Shown here: positions 17,109 to 63,489 of the stretch, one piece after another
How the letters are laid out: every line of letters starts with the position of its first letter
Numbering within the stretch: the stretch's first letter is position 1
Origin: Neoarius graeffei
Lineage: Eukaryota > Chordata > Actinopteri > Siluriformes > Ariidae
Length of the DNA stretch: 64,000 bases
NCBI RefSeq assembly: GCF_027579695.1
Contig: NC_083582.1
Location: 30,952,964 to 31,016,963 of the forward strand
Direction of reading: 5' to 3'
Translations under genes and position numbers: made by a program
The notes under the pieces: generated by a model
Seen by the model: the letters and a program-made list of their open reading frames with translations, nothing else
Told to the model about the DNA's origin: nothing
Databases searched by the model: none

Positions 17109-17118
17109 GTATAAAAAG
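17109..17118 (+). promoter_or_regulatory. TATA-like element of Tc1 family B
   Basis: GTATAAAAAG lies about 40 bp before the preferred transposase ATG at 17155 and downstream of an alternative ATG at 17101. The same motif is conserved in the second copy. This favours the downstream start. Confidence 0.45.
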
Positions 17119-17154
17119 AGCATCTTGGAGTGGCAGCGGCTCTCAGAAGTAAAG

Positions 17155-18177
17155 ATGGGAAGAGGATCACCAATCCCCCTAATTCTGCGCCGACAAATAG
17201 TGGAGCAATATCAGAAAGGAGTTCGACAGTGTAAAATTGCAAAGAGTTTGAACATATCATCATCTACAGTGCATAATATCATCAAAAGATTCAGAGAATC
17301 TGGAAGAATCTCTGTGCGTAAGGGTCAAGGCCGGAAAACCATACCGGGTGCCCGTGATCTTCGGGCCCTTAGACGGCACTGCATCACATACAGGCATGCT
17401 TCTGTATTGGAAATCACAAAATGGGCTCAGGAATATTTCCAGAGAACATTATCTGTAAACACAATTCACCATGCCATCCGCCGTTGCCAGCTAAAACTCT
17501 ATAGTTCAAAGAAGAAGCCGTATCTAAACATGATCCAGAAGCGCAGACGTCTTCTCTGGGCCAAGGCTCATTTAAAATGGACTGTGGCAAAGTGGAAAAC
17601 TGTTCTGTGGTCAGACGAATCAAAATTTGAAGTTCTTTATGGAAATCAGGGACGCCGTGTCATTCGGACTAAAGAGGAGAAGGACGACCCAAGTTGTTAT
17701 CAGCGCTCAGTTCAGAAGCCTGCATCTCTGATGGTATGGGGTTGCATTAGTGCGTGTGGCATGGGCAGCTTACACATCTGGAAAGACACCATCAATGCTG
17801 AAAGGTATATCCAGGTTCTAGAGCAACATATGCTCCCATCCAGACGACGTCTCTTTCAGGGAAGACCTTGCATTTTCCAACATGACAATGCCAAACCACA
17901 TACTGCATCAATTACAGCATCATGGCTGCGTAGAAGAAGGGTCCGGGTACTGAACTGGCCAGCCTGCAGTCCAGATCTTTCACCCATACAAAACATTTGG
18001 CGCATCATAAAATGGAAGATACGACAAAAAAGACCTAAGACAGTTGAGCAACTAGAATCCTACATTAGACAAGAATGGGTTAACATTCCTATCCCTAAAC
18101 TTGAGCAACTTGTCTCCTCAGTCCCCAGACGTTTACAGACTGTTGTAAAGAGAAAAGGGGATGTCTCACAGTGGTAA
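17155..18177 (+). CDS. Tc1-like transposase, full length, E279Q in the DDE triad
   Basis: A DDE transposase that would bind the terminal repeats and cut and join DNA at TA. An upstream in-frame ATG exists at 17101, but a TATA-like GTATAAAAAG lies at 17109-17118 between the two. Starting at 17155 (MGRGSPIPL) gives exactly 340 residues, the usual Tc1 length. The N-terminal helix-turn-helix ([22 protein letters not shown]) and basic GRKT motif are intact. Catalytic D154 (LWSDESK) and D244 (QHDNAKPH) are present. The third residue, in [11 protein letters not shown], is Gln (CAA) instead of Glu at 279. The spacing is that of DD34E. The protein is therefore expected to be catalytically dead though complete. 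The copy at 61968 keeps Glu. Confidence 0.9.
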
Positions 18178-18397
18178 ACATGGCCTTGTCCCAACTTTTT
18201 TGAGATGTGTTGTTGTCATGAAATTTAAAATCACCTAATTTTTCTCTTTAAAGATGCATTTTCTCAGTTTAAACATTTGATATGTCATCTATGTTCTATT
18301 CTGAATAAAATATGGAATTTTGAAACTTCCACATCATTGCATTCCGTTTTTATTTACAATTTGTACTTTGTCCCAACTTTTTTTGGAATCGGGGTTG

Positions 18398-32600: not shown

Positions 32601-35600
32601 ACAATTCTGCATTGGTAATGTTTTCTTACATGCATGCATTGTTCATTATTGTGTAGGTCATTTTTTCTTATTGTCACCTTGCTTACTGATACTGTTCACG
32701 TTGACTGTTCACTGTTTTGTGTTCACTCATGTTTATTATTTTGGTGTTACGTACTTAGCAATCTTAGCCTTACAGCTCTGACACCAAACACATCTCGGTC
32801 CCTTAACTACATTTCAGCTGCATGGGAAATTGCATGTAAGTCTTTTGAATTAAAGCTTTAAGATTACATCAAACTGTCCCCATCGTGGTAAATCATATAC
32901 ACTTAGTGGCCACTTTATTAGGAATACCCATCCACCTGCTGTTTTATGCAGTTCTCTAATCAGCCGATCCCTTGACAGCAGCACAATGCATCAAATCATG
33001 CAGATACAAATCAAGAGCTTCAGTTAATGTTCACTTCATATGTCAGGAAAATTGTGATCTCTGTGACTTTAACTGTGGCATGGGTGTTGGTGCCAGATGG
33101 ACTGGTTTGAGTATTTCAGAAACTGCTGATCTCCTGGGGTTTTCACACACAACAGTCTGTAGAGTTTACACAGAATGGTGCGGGGGGGAAAAAAACTGAG
33201 TGAGCGACAGTTGCTGAAAACACCTTGCTGATAAGAGAGGTCAGAGAAAAATGGCCAGATTGGTTCGAGCTGCCAAGAAGGATATAGTAACTCATATAAT
33301 CACTGTTTACAACCATGGCAGGCAGAAAAGCATCTCAGCATGCAACAGCAGAAAACCACACTGGTTTTCACTCTTGCAGCCAAGAACAAGAATCTTAGAA
33401 TCAACAACAAGTTCCTATTAAAGTGGCCGGTGAGTGTATTTTGTTTTCGGTATGTTTCTGGAATGATAGTGTTTGACCTGTACTGCTGCCTTGGGTCTAG
33501 TTTCCCCGTGTTAGTCTCCCACAGCTTTGATGCCAAAACCCTGATGATGTTGAGGAAAAGAAAGAAGTTGACCTGGAGAGTAAGAGAGAAATGCAACACA
33601 GTAAAAGGTTATGATATAGAATTGTGACAGCTTCAAAAAAAAAAAAGCAGAATATTGATTGAATAAGGAGCAATGGTTTGCTTACAGCGATGGCTGCAAG
33701 GATTGGAACTTGAAAAATCCATTTCACATTCCCTGCACTTATATCCCAACATCTGAAAGACCAACAATGACATTAATTCATGCAATCATGGGTGCAGATC
33801 CCGGGGGGGACATGCCCCCCCCCATTTCTGAAAAACATGAATTGTCCCCCCCCAATAAAAATCCCCTAAATTATTAAAAATTGCACAAACAAATGTATTT
33901 TCAGACTTCACATTCTAGATAGAAATGGTGAAACAAATAATCTCATCTCATTATCTCTAGCCACTTTATCCTGTTCTACGGGGTCGCAGGCAAGCTGGAG
34001 CCTATCCCAGCTGACTACGGGCGAAAGGCAGGGTACACCCTGGACAAGTCGCCAGGTCATCACAGGGCTGACACATAGACACAGACAACCATTCACACTC
34101 ACATTCACACCTACGGTCAATTTAGAGTCACCAGTTAACCTAACCTGCATGTCTTTGGACTGTGGGGGAAACCGGAGCACCCGGAGGAAACCCACGCGGA
34201 CACGGGGAGAACATGCAAACTCCACACAGAAAGGCCCTCGCCGGCCACGGGGCTCGAATCCGGACCTTCTTGCTGTGAGGCGACAGCGCTAACCACTACA
34301 CCACCGTGCCGCCCATGGAACAAATAATATTTGACAAATACAGTGGTGCTTGAAAGTTTGTGAACCCTTTAGAATTTTCTATATTTCTGCATAAATATGA
34401 CCTAAAACATCATCAGATTTTCACACAAGTCCTAAAAGTAGATAAAGAGAACCCAGTTAAACAAATGAGAGAAAAATATTATACTTGGTCATTTATTTAT
34501 TGAGGAAAATGATCCAATATTACATATCTGTGAGTGGCAAAAGTATGTGAACCTTTGCTTTCAGTATCTGGTGTGACCCCCTTGTGCAGCAATAACTGCA
34601 ACTAAACGTTTGCGGTAACTGTTGATCAGTCCTGCACACCGGCTTGGAGGAATTTTAGCCCATTCCTCCGTACAGAACAGCTTCAACTCTGGGATGTTGG
34701 TGGGTTTCCTCACATGACCTGCTCGCTTCAGGTCCTTCCACAACATTTTGATTGGATTAAGGTCAGGACTTTGACTTGGCCATTCCAAAACATTAACTTT
34801 ATTCTTCTTTAACCATTCTTTGGTAGAACGACTTGTGTGCTGAGGGTCGTTGTCTTGCTGCATGACCCACCTTCTCTTGAGATTCAGTTCATGGACAGAT
34901 GTCCTGACGTTTTCCTTTAGAATTCGCTGGTATAATTCAGAATTCACTGTTCCATCAATGATGGCAAGCTGTCCTGGCCCAGATGCACCAAAACAGGTCC
35001 AAACCATGATACTACCACCACCATGTTTCACAGATGGGATAAGGTTCTTATGCTGGAATGCAGTGTTTTCCTTTCTCCAAACATAACGCTTCTCATTTAA
35101 ACCAAAAAGTTCTATTTTGGTCTCAGCCATCCACAAAACATTTTTCCAATAGCCTTCTGGCTTGTCCACATGATCTTTAGCAAGCTGCAGACGAGCAGCA
35201 ATGTTCTTTTTGGAGAACAGTGGCTTTCTCCTTGCAACCCTGCCATGCACACCATTGTTGTTCAGTGTTCTCCTGATGGTGGACTCATGAACATTAACAT
35301 TAGCCAATGTGAGAGAGGCCTTCAGTTGCTTAGAAGTTACCCTGGGGTCCTTTGTGACCTCGCCGACTATTACACGCCTTGGTCTTGGAGTGATCTTTGT
35401 TGGTCGACCACTCCTGGGGAGGGTAACGATAGTCTTGAATTTCCTCCATTTGTGCACAATCTGTCTGACTGTGGATTGGTGGAGTCCAAACTCTTTAGAG
35501 ATGGTTTTGTAACCTTTTCCAGCCTGATGAGCATCAACAACACTTTTTCTGAGGTCCTCAGAAATCTCCTTTGCTCGTGCCATGATACACTTCCACAAAC

Positions 35601-37584
35601 ATGTGTTGTGAAGATCAGACTTTGATAGATCCCTGTTCTTTAAATAAAACAGGGTGCCCACTCACACCTGATTGTCATCCCATTGATTGAAAACGCCTGA
35701 CTCTAATTTTGCCTTCAAATTAACTGCTAATCCTAGAGGTTCACATACTTTTGCCACTCACAGATATGTAATATTAGATCATTTTCCTCAATAAATAAAT
35801 GACCAAGTACAATATTTTTGTCTCATTTGTTTAACTGGGTTCTCTTTATCTACTTTTAGGACTTGTGTGAAAATCTGATGATGTTTTAGGTCATATTTAT
35901 GCAGAAATATAGAAAATTCTAAAGGGTTCACAAACTTTCAAGCACCACTGTATATTTCTGACTCTGGACAAATAAACAAGAAAGGTAAGCACAAATGATT
36001 CCCTGTGCAGTACTTTTTGAATGATGTGGTGAGCCTCTACGAAGTTGTGATTTATGGTTGCATAGTATGAGTTGCATACGGGCAAAAAAAAAAAAAAATC
36101 ACTTTTGTGTCCCCCCCCAATCCTGACATCGGATCTGCACCCGAGCATGCAATGTCTATAAAAAAAATGACTCTCCACTTAACCCACTCCACATGACCTA
36201 GAATTTAGATTACAACATTACATTTCTTATATAAGAAAAATAATAAAGTGTCCTCACTGAAAATGTTACCATATCAATGATTACACAGATTTTTTTTCAT
36301 CTGTTTCAGTAACGCATCTGTGGTACAAGTCCCTGTGAATGAGTTATTATTATACAAACATTATGTTCATTTCTGATGTACAGAGTCTGCATGTGAGGAG
36401 GTTTGAAATAGAAAACAGTTGGGTTTAAACTTACTGTGTATCAGCCAATGAGGCTCGAACACTGACCCAAATCGAGACAAACACAGCAGGAACACCTGCA
36501 GCAAAGAAAAGGTGGAAAATTGATAACTCTTCTGCTCAGCATGTGATGAAAAGTGATGACCAAAATATAACCCACCATTTTTATTTCTGGATATTTCTAT
36601 GCATGTTTTACCAACCCAAGCATATTAAGTAAGCATGAAATGCTTGCGATGGGCAACAGTAACTTTAAGAAGCATAAGGAAATGCAGGATGTCTCAATTT
36701 TTCCTCTATATGTAGATCAACTCTGACCACAAAACCGATTTGATGAAAAGTAGGCAGCTCACCCCAACCTATGATGGTTAGAGCCCACAGGTAATTTTTA
36801 TCAGACAGGAAAGCCATGAAGATCAGACTATGCAGGTACAGGCCCTCCACCAGGATCCAGTAGTGATTGGTCGCCAGGAAATAATGGAAAAAGGTCACGG
36901 CCACTTTACAGCCCACCTGATCCCAAGCCATACAAGTATGGAAAAAAAAGTTAGAAAACAAGTTGGCAAAAACTGAAAGTTTTTTTATTGTTGTTGTTGT
37001 TGTTGTTGTTGAGAAAATACAAATTCATATAGATTTTCCAATAACGTCAAACGCTGTTGTTGTTCAGTCAAAGTCAAACCGTTTGTTTCTTTAGTTTTAG
37101 CACAGGAGTTAGACTAATTCGCAAAGATAAGGATGTTTATGACCAGGGTCATCTTCCATGGATTTTTTTTTTGTTACTTCCACTTCAGTAATCATTTTAT
37201 CATTTTGTTTTGAGTAATTTTTGAAATTACTCAACTTTTTTGCCTTTTGTCTGGGTAATTTTTCTTACTTTTGCCTATCGGTTGTTTTTATTACTTTCAT
37301 TTTTTATTCTTTTACATGAGAAAATTGTGTTAATTTCACCTTCTTTGGCATTTTCTATGGGTGCGTTTTGTATCTTCTACCATTGTACATGTGTAATTTT
37401 ACTTATTTATGCCTGATTTATTGTTTTCTATGAGTAACTTTTGTTACTGCCCAATTAAATAGCCTATGGAATCAGAATATATAAATAACTGCAATGTTTT
37501 TTAATTCACTTGCATTTATATCTTTTTTTTTACACAATATTTTAACATTTTGATCAGTTACTTATCCCCACTAATAGAGTCATA

Positions 37585-39114: not shown

Positions 39115-39158
<44 letters not shown>

Positions 39159-42100
39159 TCTGGTTGGGAGAGCCCTCGCCTCTTTGCTCTCTCTCTCCTT
39201 TTCTCTGCTCCGTCATGACTGCAACAAACACACACACGCAACATTAATTAACAACAGGTATAATGACTTTGCCACTCACCTTCCCTGACCCCACCCTCAA
39301 TTCACAAACTGACACTTGACCATGCCCCCATTGCCACATACCCCCACCGCCTGACTCAGGCCCGGGAGCCATCTGGCCTGCAGTGGACTTCTCCCCGATG
39401 GGACAGAAAGTCCGCCACCACCATCTGCGCCCCCGGCCTGTGGACCACCTCAAATTTAAAAGGCTGGAGGGCTAAGTACCAACGGGTGATCTGCACATTG
39501 GCATCTTTCATACAGTGGAGCCACTGGAGCAGTGCATGGTCCGAACAGAGGGTGAAAGGGCACCCCAGCAGGTAGTACCGGAGGGTGAGGACCGCCCACC
39601 TGATGGCCAGGCACACTTTCTCGATGGTGCTGTATTTACTTTCTCACATCGAGAGCTTGTGACTGATGTACAGCACTGGACATTCCTTGCCCTTCACCTT
39701 CTGGGATAAAATGGACCCCAGCCCTCTGTCCGACTTGTCTGTCTGTAAAATAAAAGGGAGAGAGAAATCAGGGGAGTGTAAAAGTGGCCCCCCACACAGT
39801 GCAGTTTTTACCTTGATGAAGGCCTGTTGGCACTGCTCTGTCCACTGGACCGGATCTGGTGCTCCCATTTTTGTGAGATCAGTCAGCAGGCTGGTGACAT
39901 CTGAATAGTTAGGTATGAACCTGTGATAGTAGCCAGCCAGCCCCAAGAACTGTCTCACCCACTTTCTGGTCTTGGGCTTCGGGCAGGCCGCAATTGCTGC
40001 AGTCTTACCAATTTGGGGACGCACCTGCCCATGACCCTAGTGGAAACCCAGCTACCATACTTCCACCCACCCAATCGCACACTTTTTTGAGTTAGCCATA
40101 AGACCCACACGCCTCAGTAACTCCAGGACAGCCCTAAGGTGTTCTAGGTGCTGCGGCCAATATGATATATAATGATTTTGTCTAAGTAGGCCACAGCATA
40201 GGCGGCATGGGGGTGGAGGATTTTGTCCAGGAGCCACTGGAACATAGCGGGAGTGCCAAATACTCCGAAAGGAAGCATGACGAATTGATCTAAGCTAAAC
40301 GGTGTGGAAAAGGCCATTTCCTCTTGGGATAGAGGAGTCAAGGGGATCTGCCAATATCCCTTTGTCAAATCCAGTGTTGAATAAAAGCGAGCAATGCCTA
40401 ATCGATCAAGCAGCTCATCAATGTGAGGCATTGGGTACGTGTCGAATTTAGACGCTGCGTTGACTTTTCTATAGTCCACACAGAACTGGACCGACCCATC
40501 GGTCTTGGGGACCAGGACCACCAGGCTGCTCCAATCACTATAGGACTCCTCAATTATTCCGAATTTGAGCATGGCCTTGAGTTCACCCCGAACCAATGTT
40601 TTTTCGTGTTCGGGCAAGCGGTATGTGCGGCTACACACCACCACCCCTGGGGGCATCTCAGTGTGGTGTTCTGTGAGGTGAGTGTGGCTCGGAAGGGGCG
40701 AGAACATGTCAGAAAATTACATTTGTAACCTGGTAACCTCCGTGAGTTAAGCCAATGAAAGGTGGTCTCCACAGGGCACTGAAGTGTCTTGAGTAGTTAC
40801 TTTCGTTTTTAACTCCAAATCCAGCTCCACCCTTTCTGGAACTACCGACACCAATGCCACAAGGACCCCCTTGTGGGGGTTGAGGTGGTAGATTTATAGC
40901 ACCCACCCCTATCCGTTCACCTCACCTCAGTCGACGTCCCGATTCACCATGTGACCTCAAAGGGCCTGTCGTAAGTCCCTGATGTGGGTGGAATACTAAA
41001 GCACAGCAGGTGGGAGATGATGTTCACACAACTTTTATTTTTTTAATTTTGCTGCTTTTCAGCTTCACTAAGCTTGTTTACACACACAGATACACGTACA
41101 CACACGTGTTCTGGTCGGGAGAGATCCTCTCTCATCGCTCTCTCCCTCCTTTTCTCTGCTCCATCGTTACTGCAATACACATACGGTACACACACACACA
41201 CGCGCGCATGCACACACACACACACAACATTAATTGACAACAGGTGTAATGACTTTGCCACTCACCTTCCCTGGCCCCGCCCTTGATTCACAAACTGACG
41301 CTTGACCACACCCCTGCTGCCACAATAAGTATTATTTATGTGAGCCATTCTTGTTATTTCAGCCTCATTTTATCTTTTAACAGGGATCATTCTTGTTATT
41401 TTCCTCTCATTTATCATCTGACATGGGTCATTCTTGTTATATCATTCCTCAATTTATCTTTTTGCAGGGGTCAAGCTCATTATTTTACTCTCATTTATCA
41501 TTGGACATGGGTAATTCTTGATATTTTTGCCACATTTATTATCTGACATGGGTCATTCTTGTTGTATCCGTCTTGTTTCTCATTGGACATGGTTCATTAT
41601 TGTTAGTTTAGTTTCATGTCTCATTTGACATGGGTCATTTGTGTTATTTCAGCCTCTTTTATCATTTGACATTGGTCATTCTTGTTACTGCTGCCTTGTT
41701 TTTCATGTGACATGGATCATTCATGTTATTTCAGCATCATTTTGTCTTATTTCAAGGGTCATTCCTGTTCTTTCAGCCTCATTTCTCATTTGACAGAGGT
41801 AGTTTTTTTTATGTCAGCTTCATTTATAATTGGACATGGGTCATTCCTGTTATTTCAGCCTCATTTACAAGTGGACAATGGTCATTTCTGTTATTTCAGT
41901 CCCATTTATAATTGGACAATGGGCCATTCCTATTATTTCAGCCTCATTTATAATTTGATAGGGGTAGTTTTTATGTCAGCTTAATTTATAATTGGACATG
42001 GGTCATTTTTGTTATTTCAGTCTCATTTTATCTTTTTATGGGGTAATTCGTAATATTACAGCCTCATTTTTCATCTGACATGGTTTGTTCTTGATATTTC

Positions 42101-43766
42101 AGCCTTATTTATCATTTAACATGGATCTGTTTTATTAATTTTACATCATTCATTATTTAGCATGAGTAATTATGATTACGTTAGCCTTGCTTATTGTTTA
42201 AGATGGGTCATGTTTTTATTTTAGCCTCATTTATCATGGGTCACTTTTGTGGTAAAGGTCACAGTAGTGGGAGTGTTTAAAAAATAGGATGCCTGTGATG
42301 AATGTCATCATATCTAAACCTCTCATATCTCAGAACATACAACAGATGGAAATAGCAATCTTATAATTACACTGGGATAATGCTAGTGTTAAAATGATAA
42401 ACGTATGAGCGTGGACCAAGTGTGAAAAACCTCAAACATTTACGTGCTAAACATACTTGAAGTAGCAGAGGATGAAGACAGCCACCAGTAATGAGGTCAA
42501 AGAGATGGAGTAACCTGTAGTGTACATCACGTGAAGCCGCCTGAACACCTCCTGATGATGAACAAATACACAGTGGAATTCCCAATGTGTTAAAACATCG
42601 TGAGATTGTTATCATTTACACCATGAAATTTTCTTAATTGATTTGCTTGGCAAGGATAATTGTTAATAACTGTTATTTTGTCTTCGTTTATTACTGTATT
42701 TTCATCTCAGTTTAGATTTTTCAAGACATATTTCCATCTCACATCACTGTTGAATTCTGTATTCTGTATTCTGAGGGCGTATTCACACCTACGTTGTTTG
42801 GTCCGGACCAAACGACCAAACGAACCAAATTTCCCTTGGTCCGGACCTTTTGGGTTGGTCTGAATACAAACCACCGAACTCTGGTCCGGACCAAACAAGC
42901 GGACCGAGACCGAGCTGCAAGGTCGGACTCGGTCCAGACCAAAGGAACCCTGGTGCGGACCTTTTGGAGGTGTGAAAGCAGACCGGACCTAATCCGACAA
43001 TTTTGCTTTTTTTGTACCTCGGGAGCTTCCGTCGTTTGTCGAGCATTATGGGAAACAGAGTCTTGACACTCCACCGCAAAGCGCAACACTGTTTCGGTTG
43101 TCAAGGGAACCTTACAACAGTCGTTCAGTCATTCAGGCTAGACTACAGAGTACAAAAAATGAGTAGGGGGCAAACGTGGGCCGAGGAAGAAACGCGTACC
43201 CTTGTGGATATATGGGCAGATGTCCACATATCTGAGCTTTTGGAGAGAACACACAAAAATGCCGACGTGTTTGCTGTATTCAGTGAGAAAATGAAGGAGA
43301 AGGGGTTCACGCGCTCCCCAGAACAATGTCGGCTAAAAGTGAAGAAACTCCGTCAGACCTACATTAAAATCAGGGACATTCTTTCAAAAAGTGGCGGTAC
43401 TAGCGACTTGCGTGAAGAGCCAGAACTGTCACAACATGATGTGCGCTCATCAGCGCTATCCTCCGTGACTACTTTTGAACTTAACGCTTTGTGCGTGCGT
43501 CGTCTCTGACCAATAGCTGAACGACCTCAGGGCGCGTGGGTTTGTTGACAGATTTTGGTCCGCTTACTAAAATGTACAGTGTGAAAGCGAACCGCACCAA
43601 AATGAAAAAATAAAAAAAACATTTGGTTCGGACCAAAGCAAGTGAACTATCGAACTATCCTGGTCTGAATACACCCTGAGTTTGATTAATTTTCAATAAC
43701 AGCAGCTCTGACAGGAGTGCAGTTGCAAATCACAGGTTTTTATTAATATGCTTCAATTAATAATTG

Positions 43767-44275: not shown

Positions 44276-46270
44276 CGACTGTATAAAAAATGGACAGCGC
44301 ATCATCTCTGTAAAGCGAAGCCACCACAGGTATAGCACCCCTACTAACTGGTCGCAATACAATAGCTAGCCCCATCCATTTCCGTGTGTTTCGATTAAAA
44401 AACAGCGTTTTTGTCACTTTCCTTGTCTAAACTGTCTTTCCATCTAGAGTGCCTCATTCAAATAATTAGTTTTCTCTATGCTGATATCCCCATATTTTTT
44501 ATTTCCCCCAGAAATTAGCAAAACATTATTCTCTTATAAAGTAAGCAGGTGTGGATATACTCGGGAATGAAGTGATTGACAGATTTCGTGGATAGAGACC
44601 AGCTATAGCCAGCCAGGTAACTTCATCACAGAATTCACCACCATATTCCTACTTATTTGAACTTTTCTGGAACTGTCCTTTGAACTGTCCTTATTAGACG
44701 AATCCGTGTAAATAAAATATCTCCAGCTGAAACAAGTTAATCTTTCTGGATAGATGTAAGGTTGATTACTACCATGAACACATTCTGCAATGCGTTGGAA
44801 GGGGGCGGAGCTACCAAAGGATTGGGGTGTACCTCATTTTGCCTCTCATCTGAACTGCTTCTTTGCCCAATTTGTGAAAGGACCGGACAATGTAGCTTCA
44901 CCCCAGCTGGACACTGCTGACCACCCGCTTACCCTGCAGACACAAGAGGTTAAGCGAATCCTGAGAACTGTTAACATCAAGAAGGCAGCAGGTCCGGATG
45001 GGGATTCCAGGCAGGGTGCTCAGGGACTGTGCTCATCAGCTTGCAGAAGTTTTCACCAACATTTTTAACCTCTCCCTGGCACGTGCTACTGTACCAGCCT
45101 GTCTGAAATCTGCCACAATTATTCCAGTGCCCAAACAGACCAACATTGGCTCCCTCAATGACTACAGACCAGTTGTACTCACACCCATCATATCCAAGTG
45201 CTTCGAAAAACTAGTTTTGCGGCATTTCAAAATCACCCTTTCCCCTACTTTAGATCAGCACCAGTATGCATATAGGCCAAATAGATCCACATAGGATGCC
45301 ATAAACACAGCTCTCCACACCCACCTGGAGCAGAAGGGGACATATGTAAGAATACTTTTTGTTGATTACAGCTCTGCATTCAATACTATTGTACCCAGCA
45401 GACTGGTCTGCAAACTGCTGGACTTGGGCCTTGGCAACAAACTGTGTTTATGGATCAAGGACTTTCTGAACAACTGCCCACAGATGGTGAGACTTGGTCC
45501 TTATGTCTCCCCAAGTCTCACCGTCAGCACCGGAGCACCACAAGGGTGTGTGCTAAGTCCCCTCCTCTACTCCCTCTACATGCATGACTGCACTTCCATT
45601 CACCCCACAAATACAATTATAAAATTTGCTGACGACACAACAGTTGTGGGACTGATCTCTAATGGTGATGAGACAGCTTATAGGGATGAGGTCTGCAAGC
45701 TGACTGAATGGTGTGCAGATAACAACCTGTCACTAAACATCAAAAAGAAAAAGGAGCTTCTTCTAGACTTCAGATGGCATCAGGACGAGCCCCTGCCACT
45801 AGAAATAAGGGTAGAGGAGGTGGAGAGAGTCTCCAGTTTTAAGTTTCTGGGTACCCACATCAGTGAGGATCTCAAGTGGACAGCTAACTCCACTGCTCTA
45901 GTCAAAAAGGCTCAACAAAGACTATACTTCCTAAGGACTCTGAGGAAGACCAACCTCTCTGCAAAGCTGTTGGAGTCATTCTACCACTGCTCGGTCAAGC
46001 GCATACTGACATACTGCATAATGGCCTGGTATGGAAATTGTTCAGCAGCAGACAGAGCAGCTCTTCAGAGGGTTATTAATATGGCACAAAAAAAAAATCA
46101 TCTGACTCTGTAGGTGCGAAAGAAGGCAACTGGACTTGCTTGAAATTCTTGAAGACATTTCACCTCTCATCCAAAAGATTTCTTCAGTTCTGTCTGACTA
46201 GTGGAGAGTCCCAGGTATTTATCCTCTAAGGAGACTTGTTGAGGTCACATGGGTCATTGACCCTCTCATA

Positions 46271-50646: not shown

Positions 50647-51388
50647 CACTGCAAAAACCCGGCTTACAGAAACAAGAAAAAAAAGTAATAAAATTAGGAA
50701 TATTTTACTTAAAATAAGCAAAATTATCTGCCAACAGAACAAGAAAATTTGACTTGGCAAGATTTTTAAAAACAAGTAAATATATCTAGCTTTAGAAACC
50801 CCACAGATGTCTTAAAACTAGTGTATTTATACTAAAAACAAGTAAAGTTGTACTACTCATTTTAACATGCTAGATACTTTGTCCCCCAACCAACAGTTTG
50901 ACTATTTCATCTGGGCGTATTGGTGTGCTCTGTTTAAGTAAGTGTTTATACCAACTGAGACCGCCAAATAAATCAAAATCAAAACAACAAACCAATCCAT
51001 TTTGTAGCCTATTTTTGTTGCCAGATTGACAATACAACAATTCATTTCATTTAGTTATCTGTTTTGTGTTAAGAGATTAAAAGAAAGGATAAGATGCTTG
51101 AAATAAGAAATTCTGACTTTGACAAACTTGTCATGGTTAATATAACACCGATGAAATTATGGTAATTCTCATTTTAAGACAGAACTTACTCATAACCAGT
51201 AATAAAATCTCAATAACAAGTTATAATACCTTATTAAGATAACTGAGGGAAAAAAATGCTTAAAGTAAGTGAAATACTCTTACACAAAACCTGCCTGGAA
51301 AGGAGAATTATCTTGGCAGACAAATAACAAGCATATTTTGTCTTGATTTAAGATATTTAATCTTGGTTAGATTTTACTTTTTGCAGTG
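50647..51388. mobile_element. MITE with CACTGCAAAAA ends (742 bp)
   Basis: Perfect 11-bp inverted ends CACTGCAAAAA / TTTTTGCAGTG. AT-rich interior with no frame. It splits the chromovirus integrase between KFI and GPFKI. A 2-bp CA duplication is the most that can be read. Confidence 0.75.
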
Positions 51389-52312
51389 CAATGAACTTGG
51401 CACTGTGCTTTTTGCAGGTTTGAGGATCTTTGATGTCTTTGGTAGACAGCCACGCTCTGTTGCCTGGATTATATTGGGGGGTTTCTCCTCTGTGACAGTC
51501 AGCAAATTGCTTATATCTTTGCATCACTTGCTCTAGGTGCTGGTGGACACTTTCCCACACCTGTTCACTGCATTTAACCCAGTCGTTGACTGTGGGTACA
51601 TTAGTGGGAGAGTTGTTTCATGGGAAAAGGGGAGGTTGATAGCTACATATGTATTGGAATGGTGTGAGTTGGATAGCAGAATGGCTTAGCGAGTTCTGGA
51701 CATATTCAGTCTATGACAGGAACTGAGCCCAGTCCTTCTGGTTCTCAGAGCAGAATACCTGAAGGAAGCATCCAATCTCCTGGGTGGCTTTTTCCACCTG
51801 GCCATTTGACTGAGGGTAGTAGCCAGAAGTTAAGCTCACTGACACTCCCAATTTGTCCCTAAATTTCACCCAGAGTCATGATGTGAACTGGTCCCTCAAT
51901 CACTGTCTATGTCCTCGGGGATGCCCAAGTACCGGAAAACAATTTCAAAGGCTGTGGAGAGACCTGCTAAGGGGATGAGTCTTAAGGATTTGGAGAAGCA
52001 GTCGATGAAAATGATAACTGTTATTTTGAGGTTTGGGAAGGTCAGTGATAAAGTTGATGGTGATGTGGGACCATAGATGGTGAGGTGTGGGTAATGGCAT
52101 GAGTCTACCCACTGAGAGGGTCCAGGACACTTTAGCCTGTGCACATGCTGAACATGAGGAAATGAGTTGGTTGATATCCGTGAGCATGTTAGGCCACCAG
52201 TACTTTGATTTGGGTAACTGTTAAGTTCCTTGGCTGCCTGGGTGTCCAGTAGTGGGGGTAGTGTTTGCTCAAGTGATAAGTCAGCCTCGAATACGTGGAG
52301 GAACATATACAT
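51357..52312 (-). pseudogene. Chromovirus integrase fragments
   Basis: Minus-strand pieces: ISSCSACAQAKVS (zinc-binding C-x2-C), FITDLP, ITVIIFIDCFSKSLRLIPL, FRYLGIPEDIDSD (second catalytic Asp region), then SVHQHLEQVMQRYKQFADCHRGETPQ and GNRAWLSTKDI. Frames change several times. Confidence 0.72.
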
Positions 52313-52499
52313 GAGATTGGGAGGGCAGCTTTCAGGAATGTGATATGGTAGGGTCTGCGCAAGTTCTTGACAGTAAACACGGTATAATGCGTCAGCCTTG
52401 GTATTTTTGGAGCCAGGTCTGTATGCGATGGTGAATTGGAATCAGGTGAAGAATAGTACCCAGCAAGCTTGACAGGAGTTAATTTTTTTTTGGCTGCTT

Positions 52500-53259
52500 T
52501 GAGATATTCCAAGTTCTTGTGGTCAGTGTATATGGTGAACTTGTAGGTGGCTCCTTTCAGCCAGTCTTGCCACTCCTCTCACTTCAACTTGACTGTAAAA
52601 AGTTCTCAGTTACTAATGTCATAGTTCTGTTCTGTGGGTGTGAGTTTTTTTTTTAAAGAATGCCATGGGGTGTAAATTGGGCTTCTCACCAAAATGCTGT
52701 GATAGTACTGCTTCCACCCCAACTCAGAAGCATCCACTTCAACAATGAAGGGTTTCGTGGGATGAGGGTGTTTCAGGATGGGAGCAGAAATGAAGGCTGT
52801 TTTGATCTGGCTAAAGGCTTTGTTAGCCTCAGAGTTCCACTGTAAGCATTTTGGCCTTTTTTCAGTAGGGTCGTCAGTGGGGAGGCAATGGAGCAATGAT
52901 AAATCAGCAATAGAAATTGACGAATCCCAGGAAATGTTGGAGTTACTTAAAAGTGGTGGGGATTAGCCAGGTAGTGACTGCTGTGACCTTGTCTTGGTCC
53001 ATGGTGACTCCCTGCATGCTGACAATGTAGCCCAGAAAGGAGATTTGAGTGATGTGGAACTCACACTTTTCTGCTTTGACGAATGGGTGATTGTCCAACA
53101 GTTTGGCCAAGACTTCCTTGACATGGGCCTCATGACTTGACATGGGTCTCATGAAGTCCAGAGAGTAAATGAGGATATAGTTGATATATACAATGACAAA
53201 CTTGCCTGGCATTTCCCTCAAGATATCATTAATTAGGCACTGGAACACACTTGGTGTAC
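52500..53259 (-). pseudogene. Chromovirus RT (3' half) and RNase H
   Basis: Minus strand: TPSVFQCLINDILREMPGKF, VIVYINYILIYS (catalytic YxDD degraded to YINY), HEAHVKEVLAKLLDNHPFVK, EKCEFHITQISFLGYIVS, then FIVEVDASELG (RNase H Asp) and ENLEYLK-type sequence near 52510. It joins at 53260 with the half on the other side of the young element. Confidence 0.8.
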
Positions 53260-53393
53260 ATATGTGTGGCAGCGGGGGCGTGGCCAAGCATCAGTCTGTG
53301 ACAGGAGGGCGGAGTCAGGGAAGGTAAGTGGCAAAATCACTACACCTGATGTCAATTAACCTGTGTTTGTGTGTCTTCCCAGTGACCGCGCCC

Positions 53394-53402
53394 TATATAA
53401 AG
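53394..53402 (+). promoter_or_regulatory. LTR TATA box
   Basis: TATATAAAG, about 98 bp before the AATAAA. Transcription would start roughly 25-30 bp downstream and the transcript would carry the PBS and gag-pol. Confidence 0.7.
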
Positions 53403-53491
53403 AGAGAGAGAGCAGAGGAAGGCAGCTCTCTCTGGAACCAGTCAACTGGTGTGTGTGGTGTGACTGGAGAGATTTGTGTCTGAAAAGAACG

Positions 53492-53497
53492 AATAAA
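53492..53497 (+). terminator. LTR poly(A) signal AATAAA
   Basis: AATAAA in GAACGAATAAAAGAGC. The equivalent in the 3' LTR (58107-58112) would end the genomic transcript. Confidence 0.7.
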
Positions 53498-53567
53498 AGA
53501 GCATTATGGAACTTTATTCTGGCCTGCCGTCTTTCTGTGCTCCTCCCCCTCCTACGAACTGCCACAG

Positions 53568-53585
53568 TGGTGCCGAAACCCGGGA
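53568..53585 (+). promoter_or_regulatory. Primer-binding site
   Basis: TGGTGCCGAAACCCGGGA begins one base after the LTR end. It starts TGG, complementary to a tRNA CCA end. Which tRNA is not assigned. Confidence 0.75.
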
Positions 53586-53610
53586 CGGAGCACAGGAAAA
53601 GAACAGCCCC

Positions 53611-56600
53611 ATGGAGCCCTCCACCTTCGCGGACCTGGTCCACGCCCTCACCACGGCCCAGCAGAGCCAGCACCAGGCGCTAATCACCCTCCGGAAGGAG
53701 CAAGAGCGCCGGTTCGAGGCCCTGGTGCTGGCGCAGCAGGAAGATCGTCAGGCGTTCCGGCACCTCCTCGCGTCGGCGGGGTCCACCAGCGCTCCCACCG
53801 CGGGCCCGTCCCCCCCCATCCTAACCAAGATGGGCCCGCAAGACGACCCCGAGGCATTCATCACGCTCTTCGAGCAAGTCGCGGAGACCTCGGGGTGGCC
53901 GATGGAGCAGCGCGCGGCGCGCCTTCTCCCCCTGCTAACAGGAGAGGCGCAGCTGGCCGCGCTACAGCTCCCCGCTGACCGCCGGCTGGCCTACGCGGAC
54001 CTTCGCCGGGCCGTCCTCCAGCGGGTGGGGCGCACCCCCGAACAACAACGACGGCGCTTCCGCGCTCTGCGGCTGGAGGAAGTCGGCCGGCCGTTCGCGT
54101 TTGGCCAGCAGCTCCGGGACGCCTGCTGGCGGTGGTTGAGGGCCAACAACTGCGACGCCGAGGGAATTCTCGATCAGGTGGTGCTGGAGCAGTTCATCGG
54201 CCGCCTGCCAGAGGGAACCGCGGAGTGGGTCCAGTGCCACCGCCCGGCGTCGCTGGATCAGGCCATCGAGTTGGCGGAGGACCATTTGGCGGCTGTTCCG
54301 ACGGCAGGACAGCGAACATCCTCTTCTCTCCTCTCCTCTCTCTCTCTCCCCCTCTCTCCTCCTGTGTCTCGTCCTCACCCTGTTCCCCCACCGCGGAGGC
54401 GGGGGCTGGCCCCACCCCAGCCGGCCCGTCGCACCCGCAGTGTCCTCCCGTTTTTCCCTTCCGTGTCTGTCTCTTCCCCCCCTCAGGTGAGTGAGCCCCG
54501 GGGCGCCAGTGCAGAGAGGAAGCCCGGGCTGGTTTTCTGGCGCTGCGGGGAGCCGGGCCACCTCCAACAGCAGTGTTCGGCAATGGAAGTGGGCGCGGTG
54601 GTTCGGATCCCCGACGCGCCAGGAGCTGCCCTCGATCGGGCCGGAGCGTATCGCATACCGGTGAGTATCCAAGGGGATACATATCAGGCATTGGTGGATT
54701 CCGGTTGTAATCAGACCTCAATCCACCAAAGCCTGGTGCAAGACGAGGCATTGGGGGGAGCACAGGGGGTGAAGGTGTTGTGTGTGCACGGGGATGTTCA
54801 CAGCTACCCATTGGTGTCGGTCCACATTTTGTTCCGAGGGGAAAAATTTATAGTAAAGGCGGCGGTTAATCCTCGCCTCACCCACTCGATAATTTTGGGG
54901 ACGGATTGGCCGGGATTCGGGGAGTTGATGAGTCATCTAGTGAAGAGTGGGTCCTGCCATAGGTCAGCAGGGGGAGGTCCCGGTGTCGCTTTGGCGGGGG
55001 CAGCTGTCGCAGAGCCGTCCACGTCATCTTCGCGTCAGAGTGAGGAGCCGCAGGCTCCTCCTCCCTCTCTCGGGGAATCCCTTGCGGATTTCCCGTTAGA
55101 GCAGTCGCGAGACGAGACTCTGCGGCATGCGTTTGACCAAGTGAGAGTAATCGATGGTCAAACGCTCCAGCCAAACGCCACCCCGTCCTTCCCCTATTTT
55201 TCTATTATGAGAGATAGATTATACCGAGTGACGCAGGACACTCAGACGAAAGAGCAAATCACCCAGCTTTTGATTCCAAAAAGCCGCCGGGAATTGGTAT
55301 TCCAGGCGGCTCACTTTAATCCCATGGCTGGACACTTAGGGCAGGATAAGACACTAGCCCGAATAATGGCCCGATTCTATTGGCCGGGGATTCGCGGCGA
55401 TGTCCGTAAGTGGTGTACGGCATGCCGCGAATGCCAGTTAGTAAATCCAGCGGCCATTCCAAAAGCGCCTTTGCGCCCCCTACCATTAATCGAGACCCCG
55501 TTCGAAAGGGTTGGGATGGATCTCGTCGGGCCATTAGATCGGTCAACACGAGGGTACCACTTTATATTAGTTCTGGTGGACTATGCAACGCGATACCCGG
55601 AAGCGGTGCCTCTTCGCAATATCTCAGCACGCAGTATTGCGGAGGCACTCTTCCGCATCATCTCCCGAGTTGGAATCCCGAAAGAGATTCTGACTGACCA
55701 AGGCACCTCGTTTATGTCACGAACACTGAGCGAACTGTATAGACTATTAGGTATTAAGCCGATCCGCACCAGCGTGTATCACTCACAAACGGACGGTTTA
55801 GTTGAACGGTTCAATCGCGCCCTCAAGAATATAATTAAAAAATTCGTAAGTGAGGACGCACGTAACTGGGATAAATGGCTCGAACCCTTGTTATTTGCAG
55901 TGCGAGAGGTCCCCCAAGCCTCCACGGGGTTCTCCCCGTTTGAATTGTTATACGGGCGTAAGCCGCGCGGCATTTTAGACGTGCTGCAAGAAAATTGGGA
56001 GGAGGGACCTTCACCCAGTAAAAATGAAATTCAATACGTTATTGACCTGCGCGCAAAACTCCACACGCTCACACACCTAACCCAGGAGAATTTGCGGCAG
56101 GCCCAAGAACGGCAAACCCGCCTGTATGACAGGGGTACGCGCCTTAGGGAGTTCGCACCGGGAGATAAAGTACTCGTACTGTTGCCCACATCGAGCTCCA
56201 AATTGATCGCCAGGTGGCAAGGACCCTTTGAGGTCACACGGCGAGTCGGGGACGTCGACTATGAGGTGAGGCGAACGGACAGAGGTGGGGCACTACAGAT
56301 TTACCACCTCAATCTACTCAAACTCTGGAACGAGGAGGTCCCCGTAGCGTTGGTGTCGGTGGTTCCGGAGAAGGCGGAGCTGGGGCCGGAGGTTCAAAAG
56401 GGCACATTGGCATCGCATACCTCTCCGGTCCCCTGTGGAGACCACCTCTCCCCGACCCAACTCGCAGAGGTCGCCCAGTTGCAGACCGAGTTTTCGGACG
56501 TGTTCTCGCCTCTGCCCGGCCGCACCGACCTCATAGAGCACCACATTGAGACGCCCCCGGGGGTGGTAGTGCGTAGCCGCCCTTACAGGCTGCCCGAACA

Positions 56601-57942
56601 CAAGAAAAAAGTGGTTCGGGAAGAACTCGAGGCCATGCTCGAGATGGGCATCGTCGAGGAGTCCCACAGTGACTGGAGCAGCCCAGTGGTCTTGGTTCCC
56701 AAGGCCGATGGGTCGGTCCGGTTCTGTGTGGACTACCGAAAAGTCAACGCGGTGTCTAAATTCGACGCGTACCCAATGCCTCGTATTGACGAGTTGCTCG
56801 ATCGGCTAGGCACGGCTCGCTTTTACTCGACACTGGATTTGACAAAGGGTTATTGGCAGATCCCCTTGACTCCATTATCCCGAGAAAAAACGGCCTTTTC
56901 CACACCGTTCGGCTTACACCAGTTTGTCACACTTCCTTTTGGGCTGTTTGGGGCGCCCGCTACATTTCAGCGGCTGATGGACAGGGTCCTCCGCCCCCAC
57001 GCCACTTATGCAGCCGCATACCTCGACGATATCATTATTTATAGTAATGACTGGCAGCGGCACTTACAACACCTGAGGGCCGTCCTTAAGTCGCTGAGGC
57101 GAGCGGGTCTCACAGCCAACCCAAAGAAGTGTGCGATTGGGCGGGTGGAAGTACGGTATCTGGGCTTCCACTTGGGCAACGGGCAGGTGCGTCCCCAAAT
57201 TAACAAGACAGCAGCAATTGCGGCCTGCCCGAGGCCCAAGACCAAAAAGGGGGTGAGACAGTTCCTGGGGCTGGCTGGCTACTATCGTAGGTTTATACCT
57301 AACTATTCGGACGTCACCAGCCCGCTGACTGATCTCACTAAAAAGGGGGCACCAGATCCGGTCCAGTGGACGGAGCAATGCCAGCGGGCTTTCTCTGAGG
57401 TAAAGGCTGCACTGTGCGGGGGGCCACTATTACACTCCCCTGACTTTTCTCTCCCTTTTATGTTACAGACGGATGCGTCGGACAGAGGGCTGGGGGCCGT
57501 GTTGTCCCAGGAGGTGGAGGGGGAGGATCGTCCCGTGCTGTACATCAGCAGAAAGCTGTCGGTACGCGAGGGGCGCTACAGCACGATAGAGAAGGAGTGC
57601 CTCGCGATCAAGTGGGCGGTCCTCGCCCTCCGCTACTACCTGCTGGGACGCCCTTTCACCCTCTGTTCGGACCACGCGCCCCTCCAGTGGCTCCACCGCA
57701 TGAAGGATGCCAACGCGCGGATCACCCGTTGGTATCTGGCACTCCAACCCTTTAATTTCAAGGTGATCCACAGGCCGGGGGCGCAGATGGTTGTGGCGGA
57801 CTTTCTCTCCCGTCAAGGGGGGGGGGGGAGTCGGCTGCAGGCCGGACGGCCGCCCGGCCTGAGTCGGGCGGTGGGGGTATGTGGCAGCGGGGGCGTGGCC
57901 AAGCATCAGTCTGTGACAGGAGGGCGGAGTCAGGGAAGGTAA
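53611..57942 (+). CDS. Gag-Pol polyprotein of Gmr1-type retrotransposon (PR-INT-RT-RH order)
   Basis: A single frame of 1443 codons plus stop from MEPSTFADLVHALTTAQQ, 26 bp after the PBS. An upstream in-frame ATG at 53506 lies inside the LTR. Gag ends with a zinc knuckle at residues 309-322 whose first Cys is Phe (FWRCGEPGHLQQQC). Protease has DSG with D363. Integrase follows, with H-H (HFNPMAGH), C-C (CTACREC) and D637, D696, E732. Then a linker, reverse transcriptase with YLDD at 1137-1140, and RNase H (TDASDRGLG, D1288; CSDHAPLQWL). Pol normally has RT-RH before INT in Ty3/gypsy; INT before RT defines the Gmr1-like group. The frame has no stop or shift, and its last 20 or so residues run into the 3' LTR. 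Apart from the knuckle it looks functional. Confidence 0.95.
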   Translation: MEPSTFADLVHALTTAQQSQHQALITLRKEQERRFEALVLAQQEDRQAFRHLLASAGSTSAPTAGPSPPILTKMGPQDDPEAFITLFEQVAETSGWPMEQRAARLLPLLTGEAQLAALQLPADRRLAYADLRRAVLQRVGRTPEQQRRRFRALRLEEVGRPFAFGQQLRDACWRWLRANNCDAEGILDQVVLEQFIGRLPEGTAEWVQCHRPASLDQAIELAEDHLAAVPTAGQRTSSSLLSSLSLPLSPPVSRPHPVPPPRRRGLAPPQPARRTRSVLPFFPSVSVSSPPQVSEPRGASAERKPGLVFWRCGEPGHLQQQCSAMEVGAVVRIPDAPGAALDRAGAYRIPVSIQGDTYQALVDSGCNQTSIHQSLVQDEALGGAQGVKVLCVHGDVHSYPLVSVHILFRGEKFIVKAAVNPRLTHSIILGTDWPGFGELMSHLVKSGSCHRSAGGGPGVALAGAAVAEPSTSSSRQSEEPQAPPPSLGESLADFPLEQSRDETLRHAFDQVRVIDGQTLQPNATPSFPYFSIMRDRLYRVTQDTQTKEQITQLLIPKSRRELVFQAAHFNPMAGHLGQDKTLARIMARFYWPGIRGDVRKWCTACRECQLVNPAAIPKAPLRPLPLIETPFERVGMDLVGPLDRSTRGYHFILVLVDYATRYPEAVPLRNISARSIAEALFRIISRVGIPKEILTDQGTSFMSRTLSELYRLLGIKPIRTSVYHSQTDGLVERFNRALKNIIKKFVSEDARNWDKWLEPLLFAVREVPQASTGFSPFELLYGRKPRGILDVLQENWEEGPSPSKNEIQYVIDLRAKLHTLTHLTQENLRQAQERQTRLYDRGTRLREFAPGDKVLVLLPTSSSKLIARWQGPFEVTRRVGDVDYEVRRTDRGGALQIYHLNLLKLWNEEVPVALVSVVPEKAELGPEVQKGTLASHTSPVPCGDHLSPTQLAEVAQLQTEFSDVFSPLPGRTDLIEHHIETPPGVVVRSRPYRLPEHKKKVVREELEAMLEMGIVEESHSDWSSPVVLVPKADGSVRFCVDYRKVNAVSKFDAYPMPRIDELLDRLGTARFYSTLDLTKGYWQIPLTPLSREKTAFSTPFGLHQFVTLPFGLFGAPATFQRLMDRVLRPHATYAAAYLDDIIIYSNDWQRHLQHLRAVLKSLRRAGLTANPKKCAIGRVEVRYLGFHLGNGQVRPQINKTAAIAACPRPKTKKGVRQFLGLAGYYRRFIPNYSDVTSPLTDLTKKGAPDPVQWTEQCQRAFSEVKAALCGGPLLHSPDFSLPFMLQTDASDRGLGAVLSQEVEGEDRPVLYISRKLSVREGRYSTIEKECLAIKWAVLALRYYLLGRPFTLCSDHAPLQWLHRMKDANARITRWYLALQPFNFKVIHRPGAQMVVADFLSRQGGGGSRLQAGRPPGLSRAVGVCGSGGVAKHQSVTGGRSQGR
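57867..57879 (+). promoter_or_regulatory. Polypurine tract
   Basis: GGCGGTGGGGGTA directly precedes the 3' LTR, the normal place for plus-strand priming. A G12 run at about 57818-57829 is a second purine stretch upstream. Confidence 0.7.
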
Positions 57943-58181
57943 GTGGCAAAATCACTACACCTGATGTCAATTAACCTGTGTTTGTGTGTCTTCCCAGTGA
58001 CCGCGCCCTATATAAAGAGAGAGAGAGCAGAGGAAGGCAGCTCTCTCTGGAACCAGTCAACTGGTGTGTGTGGTGTGACTGGAGAGATTTGTGTCTGAAA
58101 AGAACGAATAAAAGAGCATTATGGAACTTTATTCTGGCCTGCCGTCTTTCTGTGCTCCTCCCCCTCCTACGAACTGCCACA
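57880..58181 (+). repeat. 3' LTR of Gmr1-type element
   Basis: Same sequence as 53265-53566 at an offset of 4615. TATA is at 58009 and AATAAA at 58107. Confidence 0.95.
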
Positions 58182-58186
58182 ATATG

Positions 58187-59050
58187 GTATGACACAGTAC
58201 TCATAGTGGCCAGAGGTGGGGCTAAATGCCATCTTCCACTCATTGCTTTCATGTATGTGTACCAGGTTGTAGATGCTACGAAGGTCCAGCTTGTTGAATA
58301 TCTTGGTCGAGTGAAGTTGTTCCAGGGCTGATAGAACTAGAGGCAAGGGATACGGGTATTTCACCATGATCTGATTAAGGCCATGGTAGTTGATGGATGG
58401 CCTCAGACCCTCTCCTTTCTTCTGCACAAAGAAGAATCCTGCAGAGGCAGGTGACGTGGATGGATGGCTATACCCCTTTTGTCGAGCCTCCTGTAGATAA
58501 TCCTCCATAGCTTTTTGCTCTGAGATTGTCAGAGTGTAGATTCAGCAGCGAGGAGGCATAGTGCCAGGAAGAAGCTTAATGGCAGAGCCATAGGGACGAT
58601 GAGGAGGGAGCCCACTGGCTTTGCCCTTGCTGAAGACTTCCATATGTCCCCAGTAGAATTCAGGTATGTGGGCCGTGGTGGTGACTTCAGGACTTTCCAC
58701 AGTGGTGGAAGCAACTGTGAGGTTTAAGAGATGGAGACAGTGTTGTATGCAAGATGTGAGTCACTGTCCTGCCAGGAGATCGGAGGATTGTGTGGCTGTA
58801 GCCAGTGGAACCCCAAGATGATGGCCTCATTCTGGGTCTTGGTGAGCAGGAAGGAGACGGTTTCCTGATGTAGAGCACTGACTTGTAGAGTGAGGGATTG
58901 TGTGTGGTTATGAGCCCCATGGGCCCACTATTGATGGTCCTGATACTCAGTGGCTGCTGGAGTTTTTGTGTGGGCACCTACAGCTTCTGAGCAATCTTGC
59001 TGTCCATGAAGATGTCCACGGCCTCTGAGTCTATTAGTAGGCATATCAGG
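58187..59050 (-). pseudogene. Chromovirus protease and RT (5' half)
   Basis: From right to left on the minus strand: LLIDSEAVDIFMDSKIAQKL (protease, DSG changed to DSE), then [59 protein letters not shown] and [11 protein letters not shown]. There the young element cuts the gene; the rest is at 53259. Several shifts. Confidence 0.8.
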
Positions 59051-61614: not shown

Positions 61615-61798
61615 GGTGCTGGCGAAGCATTCTGTCAGGAGTGCAGGCGACAGATGGATGTAAATGCAGCAGAGAATTTATTAAAGCACGCTGGCAAACA
61701 AATCCAAATCGTGACGCAATGTCAACGTCAAAGAACAGGCAATGGTTAAGCAAGGCACAGAGCATCAGAGGCACAGACAAAGGGCAAAACCCAAAGTA

Positions 61799-63400
61799 CA
61801 ACCCCGATTCCAAAAAAGTTGGGACAAAGTACAAATTGTAAATAAAAACGGAATGCAATGATGTGGAAGTTTCAAAATTCCATATTTTATTCAGAATAGA
61901 ACATAGATGACATATCAAATGTTTAAACTGAGAAAATGTATCATTTAAAGAGAAAAATTAGGTGATTTTAAATTTCATGACAACAACACATCTCAAAAAA
62001 GTTGGGACAAGGCCATGTTTCCCACTGTGAGACATCCCCTTTTCTCTTTACAACAGTCTGTAAACGTCTGGGGACTGAGGAGACAAGTTGCTCAAGTTTA
62101 GGGATAGGAATGTTAACCCATTTTTGTCTAATGTAGGATTCTAGTTGCTCAACTGTCTTAGGTCTTTTTTGTCTTATCTTCCGTTTTATGATGCACCAAA
62201 TGTTTTCTATGGGTGAAAGATCTGGACTGCAGGCTGGCCAGTTCAGTACCCGGACCCTTCTTCTACGCAGCCATGATGCTGTAATTGATGCAGTATGTGG
62301 TTTGGCATTGTCATGTTGGAAAATGCAAGGTCTTCCCTGAAAGAGACGTCGTCTGGATGGGAGCATATGTTGCTCTGGAACCTGGATATACCTTTCAGCA
62401 TTGATGGTGTCTTTCCAGATGTGCAAGCTGCCCATGCCACACGCACTAATGCAACCCCATACCATCAGAGATGCAGGCTTCTGAACTGAGCACTGATAAC
62501 AACTTGGGTCGTCCTTCTCCTCTTTAGTCCGAATGACACGGCGTCCCTGATTTCCATAAAGAACTTCAAATTTTGATTCGTCTGACCACAGAACAGTTTT
62601 CCACTTTGCCACAGTCCATTTTAAATGAGCCTTGGCCCAGAGAAGACGTCTGTGCTTCTGGATCATGTTTAGATACGGCTTCTTCTTTGAACTATAGAGT
62701 TTTAGCTGGCAACGGCGGATGGCACGGTGAATTGTGTTCACAGATAATGTTCTCTGGAAATATTCCTGAGCCCATTTTGTGATTTCCAATACAGAAGCAT
62801 GCCTGTATGTGATGCAGTGCCGTTCAAGGGCCCGAAGATCACGGGCACCCAGTATGGTTTTCCGGCCTTGACCCATACGCACAGAGATTCTTCCAGATTC
62901 TCTGAATCTTTTGATATTATGCACTGTAGATGATGATATGTTCAAACTCTTTGCAATTTTACACTGTCGAACTCCTTTCTGATATTGCTCCACTATTTGT
63001 CGGTGCAGAATTAGGGGGATTGGTGATCCTCTTCCCATCTTTACTTCTGAGAGCCGCTGCCACTCCAAGATGCTCTTTTTATACCCAGTCATGTTAATGA
63101 CCTATTGCCAATTGACCTAATGAGTTGCAATTTGGTCCCCCAGCTGTTCCTTTTTTGTACCTTTAACTTTTCCAGCCTCTTATTGCCCCTGTCCCAACTT
63201 TTTTGAGATGTGTTGCTGTCATGAAATTTCAAATGAGCCAGTATTTGGCATGAAATTTCAAAATGTCTCACTTTCAACATTTGATATGTTGTCTATGTTC
63301 TATTGTGAATACAATATCAGTTTTTGAGATTTGTAAATTATTGCATTCCGTTTTTATTTACAATTTGTACTTTGTCCCAACTTTTTTGGAATCGGGGTTG
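61799..63400 (-). mobile_element. Tc1-like transposon, family B copy 2 (1602 bp)
   Basis: Ends CAACCCCGATTCCAAAAAAG and its complement, with TA at 61797-61798 and 63401-63402. Terminal repeats are about 210 bp, imperfect. It is more complete than the copy at 16815. Confidence 0.95.
61968..63038 (-). CDS. Tc1-like transposase with intact DDE triad and extended C-terminus
   Basis: The frame starts [18 protein letters not shown] (63036-63038), after a TATA-like GTATAAAAAG. It encodes 356 residues, against 340 in the copy at 17155. One Ile codon is lost in the helix-turn-helix (VHNIKRF instead of VHNIIKRF). The normal TAA after DVSQW is GAA here, so translation runs on for 17 residues into the terminal repeat ([17 protein letters not shown]). 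All three catalytic residues are present: WSDESK, HDNAKPH and [11 protein letters not shown]. It is the only one of the three full-length Tc1 frames in the window with a complete triad. Activity is uncertain because of the Ile loss and the tail. Confidence 0.93.
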
Positions 63401-63489
63401 TACAAAATAAAGTCAGAAAACCAGAAAAGCAATGCAATAACAAATGGCTTGGTAAAATCAAACACAAGTAACTGAGTGTATACTTTGCA

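Follow-up and report, generated by a model that had tools for sequence, protein, structure and literature searches.

Published accounts describe Gmr1 of Gadus morhua and the elements of its clade as carrying protease, integrase, reverse transcriptase and RNase H in that order (PR-INT-RT-RH) (PMC2582038), that is, with integrase upstream of RT (PMC8220671). A SCAN domain was reported in >50% of frog Gmr elements, and in Gmr elements only (PMC4131045); the vertebrate SCAN domain is described as derived from a Gmr1-like Gag and domesticated in vertebrates (PMC3424704). Gmr elements of Tetraodontiformes have been reported to be single-frame and recently active (PMC11117352).

We analyzed one element in a 64,000-nucleotide stretch of the Neoarius graeffei genome (the window). 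It shares the PR-INT-RT-RH order with Gmr1 and its clade (PMC2582038, PMC8220671), the fusion of gag and pol in one frame with the Gmr elements described from Tetraodontiformes (PMC11117352), and a SCAN-type Gag, which has been reported for many Gmr elements though not for every one (PMC3424704, PMC4131045), among them those of the frogs Silurana and Pelophylax, compared here by description only (PMC4131045). It is shorter than its described counterparts: 4.9 kb with LTRs of 302 bp, against 6,058 to 6,465 bp with LTRs of 337 to 518 bp for the reported Tetraodontiform Gmr1-4 consensus sequences (PMC11117352). Its stop codon lies inside the 3′ LTR, whereas the Tetraodontiform paper reports LTR overlap for V-clade1 only (PMC11117352). 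It further differs from the Gmr1 clade in having phenylalanine at the first cysteine position of the Gag zinc knuckle and an extra in-frame ATG in the 5′ LTR.

We conclude that the window element is a real, complete, and young member of the Gmr1-type Ty3/gypsy group, likened to that group through published features and compared in sequence within its own genome. Integrase-first order and youth are already known; what is usefully added is that the target is itself a gypsy element, how large the population of SCAN elements is, and that a lineage has a Phe knuckle.

Structure of the element and its target

The repeat search found a single direct repeat (53265-53564 and 57880-58179; 100% identical), which inspection of the sequence ends extended to the full LTRs (Table 1). 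Aligned base by base, the two LTRs showed 0 differences in 302 positions, far from a divergence of several percent, and the 5-bp word ATATG stands on both outer sides. The initial annotation had described an element complete from end to end, with LTRs that look identical over 302 bp, a perfect 5-bp duplication, and gag-pol in a single open frame; our alignment, the frame, and the ordered Pfam domains bear this out. The primer-binding site begins one base past the 5′ LTR. In a pattern search, the tRNA-Phe 3′ arm that matches it occurred at 2 places genome-wide; at the one of these that we inspected, ARAGORN found a tRNA-Phe (gaa) gene.

A single open frame (53506-57942) spans gag and pol; counted from the gag ATG, it is open throughout its 1,443 codons. 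We rejected the ATG within the LTR (53506) as the ancestral gag start because it is present in 21 of 27 aligned copies, compared with 27 of 27 for the ATG at 53611. We divided the frame into five overlapping pieces for Pfam, which gave the order SCAN(Gag)-CCHC-PR-INT-RT-RH, so that INT lies ahead of RT, as had been claimed. Motifs of protease, integrase, RT, and RNase H are all present in the window copy, and the SCAN piece matched PDB SCAN domains of ZNF24, ZNF42, PEG3, ZNF174, and ZSCAN10. Among PDB structures, the integrase piece scored best with Ty3 of yeast (7q5b, E 3e-31), an element of the conventional RT-RH-INT order.

The element thus has what defines a Ty3/gypsy LTR retrotransposon (two LTRs, a short duplication, a primer-binding site, gag, and a pol with PR, RT, RH, and INT), together with a gypsy-type integrase (H2C2, D,D35E, and a GPF/Y module). 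It also has three features of the Gmr1 clade: INT upstream of RT, a SCAN-type Gag, and a single frame for gag and pol. The assignment to a Gmr1 type, made in the initial annotation, is supported by domain order, by SCAN in Gag, and by the fused frame, with the likeness to Gmr1 drawn from published descriptions. That annotation mentioned neither the SCAN domain nor the gypsy target nor the noncanonical knuckle.

Table 1. Positions of the window element, its parts, and the older element into which it is inserted
Feature	Position in window	Strand	Details
Whole LTR element	53265..58181	+	4,917 bp, structurally complete
Target-site duplication ATATG, left copy	53260..53264	.	Sequence read
Target-site duplication ATATG, right copy	58182..58186	.	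Sequence read
5′ LTR	53265..53566	+	302 bp, TGTG...CACA
TATA-like box in 5′ LTR	53393..53402	+	Putative promoter function
AATAAA polyadenylation signal in 5′ LTR	53492..53497	+	Putative function
In-frame upstream ATG in 5′ LTR	53506..53508	+	Young lineage 21/21, wider family 0/6
Primer-binding site	53568..53585	+	18 bases complementary to tRNA-Phe 3′ end
gag-pol, one open frame	53611..57942	+	Stop codon within 3′ LTR
SCAN domain in Gag	54037..54288	+	PF02023, E 5.3e-21, 74.7 bits
Zinc knuckle, Phe replacing first Cys	54535..54576	+	zf-CCHC under cut-off, E 0.018, matched from profile position 5
Aspartic protease (DSG)	54655..54909	+	PF13650, E 2.6e-5
Integrase zinc-binding H2C2 domain	55273..55449	+	PF17921, E 2.6e-21
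Integrase core D-58-D-35-E	55498..55782	+	PF00665, E 6.4e-11; E residue just beyond Pfam match
Integrase C-terminal (GPF/Y-type) module, p58_C	56221..56322	+	PF22938, E 1.4e-9
Reverse transcriptase, YLDD	56695..57174	+	PF00078 (RVT_1), E 5.2e-35
RNase H	57367..57753	+	PF17917, E 5.3e-37; PF17919, E 1.5e-34
G-rich stretch, probable polypurine tract	57862..57879	+	Abuts 3′ LTR; putative function
3′ LTR	57880..58181	+	302 bp, no difference from 5′ LTR
Older element RT, N-terminal part	58182..58541	-	RVT_1 positions 1-120, E 3.4e-5, 24.1 bits, below curated 29.6
Older element RT, C-terminal part	52946..53263	-	RVT_1 positions 125-205, E 1.1e-7
Older element RNase H	52379..52937	-	tblastn and Pfam; spread over >1 frame
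Older element integrase	51633..52316	-	tblastn E 9.6e-13; follows RT and RH

The window element interrupts the RT of an opposite-strand gypsy element that is decayed, with coding broken across several frames, and that has the conventional order RT-RH-INT. This older element serves as a control, within the same window, for the integrase-first order; its RT and INT are 24% and 20% identical, respectively, to those of the window element. Pfam found no family in two segments of its integrase region (51899-52441 and 51360-51617).

Elsewhere in the window, an older, degraded relative on the minus strand (39136-41324) has RT and RH with 80 to 84% DNA identity to the window element; it is internally deleted, and LTR remnants and just the end of the integrase region are left. 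Transposons of other kinds are present as well. A Tc1/mariner-like transposon occurs in two copies of opposite orientation (16834-18252 and 61796-63403), with matched arms 98% alike; their transposase frames are 358 and 374 aa long. A second Tc1-like transposon, also in two copies (2649-4186 and 34333-35958), has terminal inverted repeats of 217 to 222 bp; in the copy at 34333-35958, a transposase frame of 366 aa matches an HTH of the Sleeping Beauty type. A frame at 43003-43506 encodes a Myb/SANT-like DNA-binding domain (PF13837, E 1.3e-17) and may derive, at a guess, from a transposon of the Harbinger type or from a gene of the host. Finally, probable pieces of non-LTR retrotransposons lie at 45424-46110 and 7-1470, where the matches are to the end of RVT_1 plus ALKBH8_N and, under the cut-off, to zf-RVT.

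Sibling copies and the wider family

We searched the 2.34-Gb genome (38 contigs) with the LTR and scored the best 40 of 3,805 candidates, all at 99 to 100% identity. These 40 matches are covered by 24 genomic stretches, a sample biased toward copies near the window LTR. Paired-LTR elements, the window copy included, are present in 21 of the 24. Two stretches (L049 and L050) have a single LTR between identical 5-bp words and look like solo LTRs; the last (L047) combines a full LTR with a partial one of 107 bp in opposite orientation. The LTR ends in CACA in 20 of the 21 copies and in AACA in one. Since a paired-LTR element lies at 20 other genomic places, and since 20 of the 21 copies are flanked by perfect 5-bp duplications of varying sequence, chance is ruled out. 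Position 1 of these 20 duplications is G in 11 and position 2 is T in 12, raw counts that may reflect a weak target preference.

Within the 21 pairs, the LTRs differ from each other by 0 to 6 substitutions (mean p 0.0068), with one gap as well in three pairs. Internal regions of the 20 other copies are 0.49 to 2.47% different from that of the window copy; because even the closest has 21 differing sites among 4,311 internal ones, no direct parent is seen among them. An open frame of >1,400 codons is kept in 5 of the 19 LTR pairs listed.

We compared coding changes in these copies with those expected from context-matched random placement. Differences from the window copy that are shared by at least two of the 20 copies (n = 170) comprise 79 synonymous changes, 88 nonsynonymous changes, and 3 stops, where 57.2, 108.8, and 4.1 were expected (omega-like value, 0.59). 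Differences confined to a single copy (n = 459) comprise 172, 272, and 15, where 145.6, 297.4, and 16.0 were expected (omega-like value, 0.77). Seeding of new copies by working ones would be expected to leave such a depletion among shared differences; the contrast is not clean, however, because differences confined to one copy, which ought to be near neutral, show some depletion as well. Copy by copy, amino acid changes are depleted at P <0.05 in 12 of 20. By these substitution counts, gag-pol as a whole appears to be under some purifying selection.

Beyond this young lineage, the exact LTR/primer-binding-site junction pattern has 361 matches in the genome (control, 0). We did not accept this number as the size of the young lineage because, at seven of eight junction places inspected, the LTR matched at only 79 to 83% identity, in one case along half its length, and the eighth had no LTR match; internal sequence was found at 85 to 89% identity in seven of the eight. 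In a gag tree of the 21 young copies and 8 wider-family relatives, a branch supported at 99/99 separates all 21 from the rest, the bootstrap not having settled. The tree retains one row (L057) that is nonhomologous over the gag piece (its internal region gave no blastn match) and has a very long branch.

A genome search for SCAN gave 17,871 candidates on first look. We scored 150 of these; every one exceeds the curated cut-off, and open frames of ≥1,300 aa, counted by eye, are present at 13. The window SCAN domain scores lower than those 150. In four other SCAN elements that we inspected, Gag is 30 to 32% identical to that of the window element, INT (37 to 53% identical) directly follows PR in each, and in the two followed further, RT (45 to 56% identical) and then RH lie beyond INT, with ∼0.6 to 0.7 kb unread between.

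Phenylalanine in the zinc knuckle

The canonical knuckle of retroviral and gypsy nucleocapsids, C-X2-C-X4-H-X4-C, is not found in the young lineage: Phe takes the place of its first Cys in all 21 copies, and the motif is changed further in 4 of these. The wider family has the canonical Cys in seven of eight copies, with no knuckle found in the eighth copy inspected, and distant SCAN elements have the canonical knuckle in four of four. Genome-wide, knuckle patterns that differ only at that codon number 6,562 with Cys and 76 with Phe (controls, 0). Comparison by eye places 22 of the Phe matches within the 24 stretches that cover the 40 best LTR hits; we rejected 76 as a clean copy number since chance changes in older copies would match too.

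CsRn1 and Saci-2, LTR elements of flatworms, lie outside the Gmr1 clade. As described, they share with the window element a Gag knuckle that departs from CCHC, but theirs has rearranged ligands (CHCC, CCCH), whereas the window element has one Cys replaced by Phe (PMC2582038). Our literature search, which was not made by residue and does not establish absence from print, found no Phe-type knuckle in Gmr1 elements.

The Phe knuckle is the unusual feature of this lineage. Because Phe is in every young copy, Cys is in the relatives, and the genome-wide counts are so unequal, the copies that gave rise to the young lineage most likely had Phe already. The chances stand about even, in our judgment, that the lineage spread after losing a zinc-coordinating Cys, in which case either a three-ligand knuckle would suffice for retrotransposition or Gag would come from its far commoner canonical relatives.

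Age, activity, and alternative explanations

Absence of any difference in 302 positions puts a 95% upper bound of ∼1% on divergence between the LTRs. At an assumed substitution rate of 2.5 to 5e-9 changes per site per year, the insertion is less than about 1 to 2 million years old. The element had been called apparently very young, which the LTRs and the perfect duplication uphold, and possibly active or recently active, which holds as recent activity of the lineage, with its 21 paired-LTR copies and their few LTR substitutions; it may still be active at present.

Judging from the features in Table 1, RNA would start in the 5′ LTR, at the TATA-like box, and end in the 3′ LTR, with its AATAAA. 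One gag-pol polyprotein would be made and cut by its own protease; the SCAN-containing Gag would assemble particles, tRNA-Phe would prime reverse transcription, and integrase would insert the new copy with a 5-bp duplication. The window copy itself entered the RT of the older opposite-strand gypsy element too recently for its LTRs to have diverged.

LTR identity alone cannot separate recent insertion from conversion, and the element could be older than it looks, with LTRs homogenized by gene conversion or by assembly error. Gene conversion would indeed yield LTRs without a difference, but it would leave to be explained a frame open over its whole length from the gag ATG, low LTR divergence at 21 independent places (in a sample biased to similar LTRs), and the position of the window copy as the shortest tip among the 21 lineage rows of the gag tree; we regard homogenization as very improbable. 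Still more remote, to the point of being scarcely credible, is a host gene domesticated from gag-pol that has lost mobility: SCAN domains were domesticated in vertebrates, according to published work (PMC3424704), yet here the LTRs are intact, the duplication is perfect, siblings are dispersed, all pol enzymes are retained, and the location is within a decayed gypsy element. We are thus nearly certain that this is a young, structurally complete Gmr1-type Ty3/gypsy element recently inserted in the RT of an older gypsy element.

Whether such an element supplies its own Gag is a separate matter. Because the knuckle lacks one ligand in all 21 copies, the element may need a helper Gag, and dependence on Gag provided in trans would find ample donors in a genome with thousands of exact matches to the canonical pattern. 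Against this, a frame of >1,400 codons is kept by some of the listed pairs, gag-pol overall seems to be under some purifying selection, and a three-ligand knuckle may suffice; we therefore consider dependence on abundant canonical relatives possible but rather unlikely.

Gmr1-like Gag is the source, in the published account, of the SCAN domain of vertebrate transcription factors (PMC3424704). With its numerous SCAN matches, several of them within long open frames, and a young lineage whose LTRs allow dating, this genome is well suited to studies of the spread of such elements. The Phe knuckle makes it possible to ask how far retrotransposition depends on an intact zinc site in the nucleocapsid.
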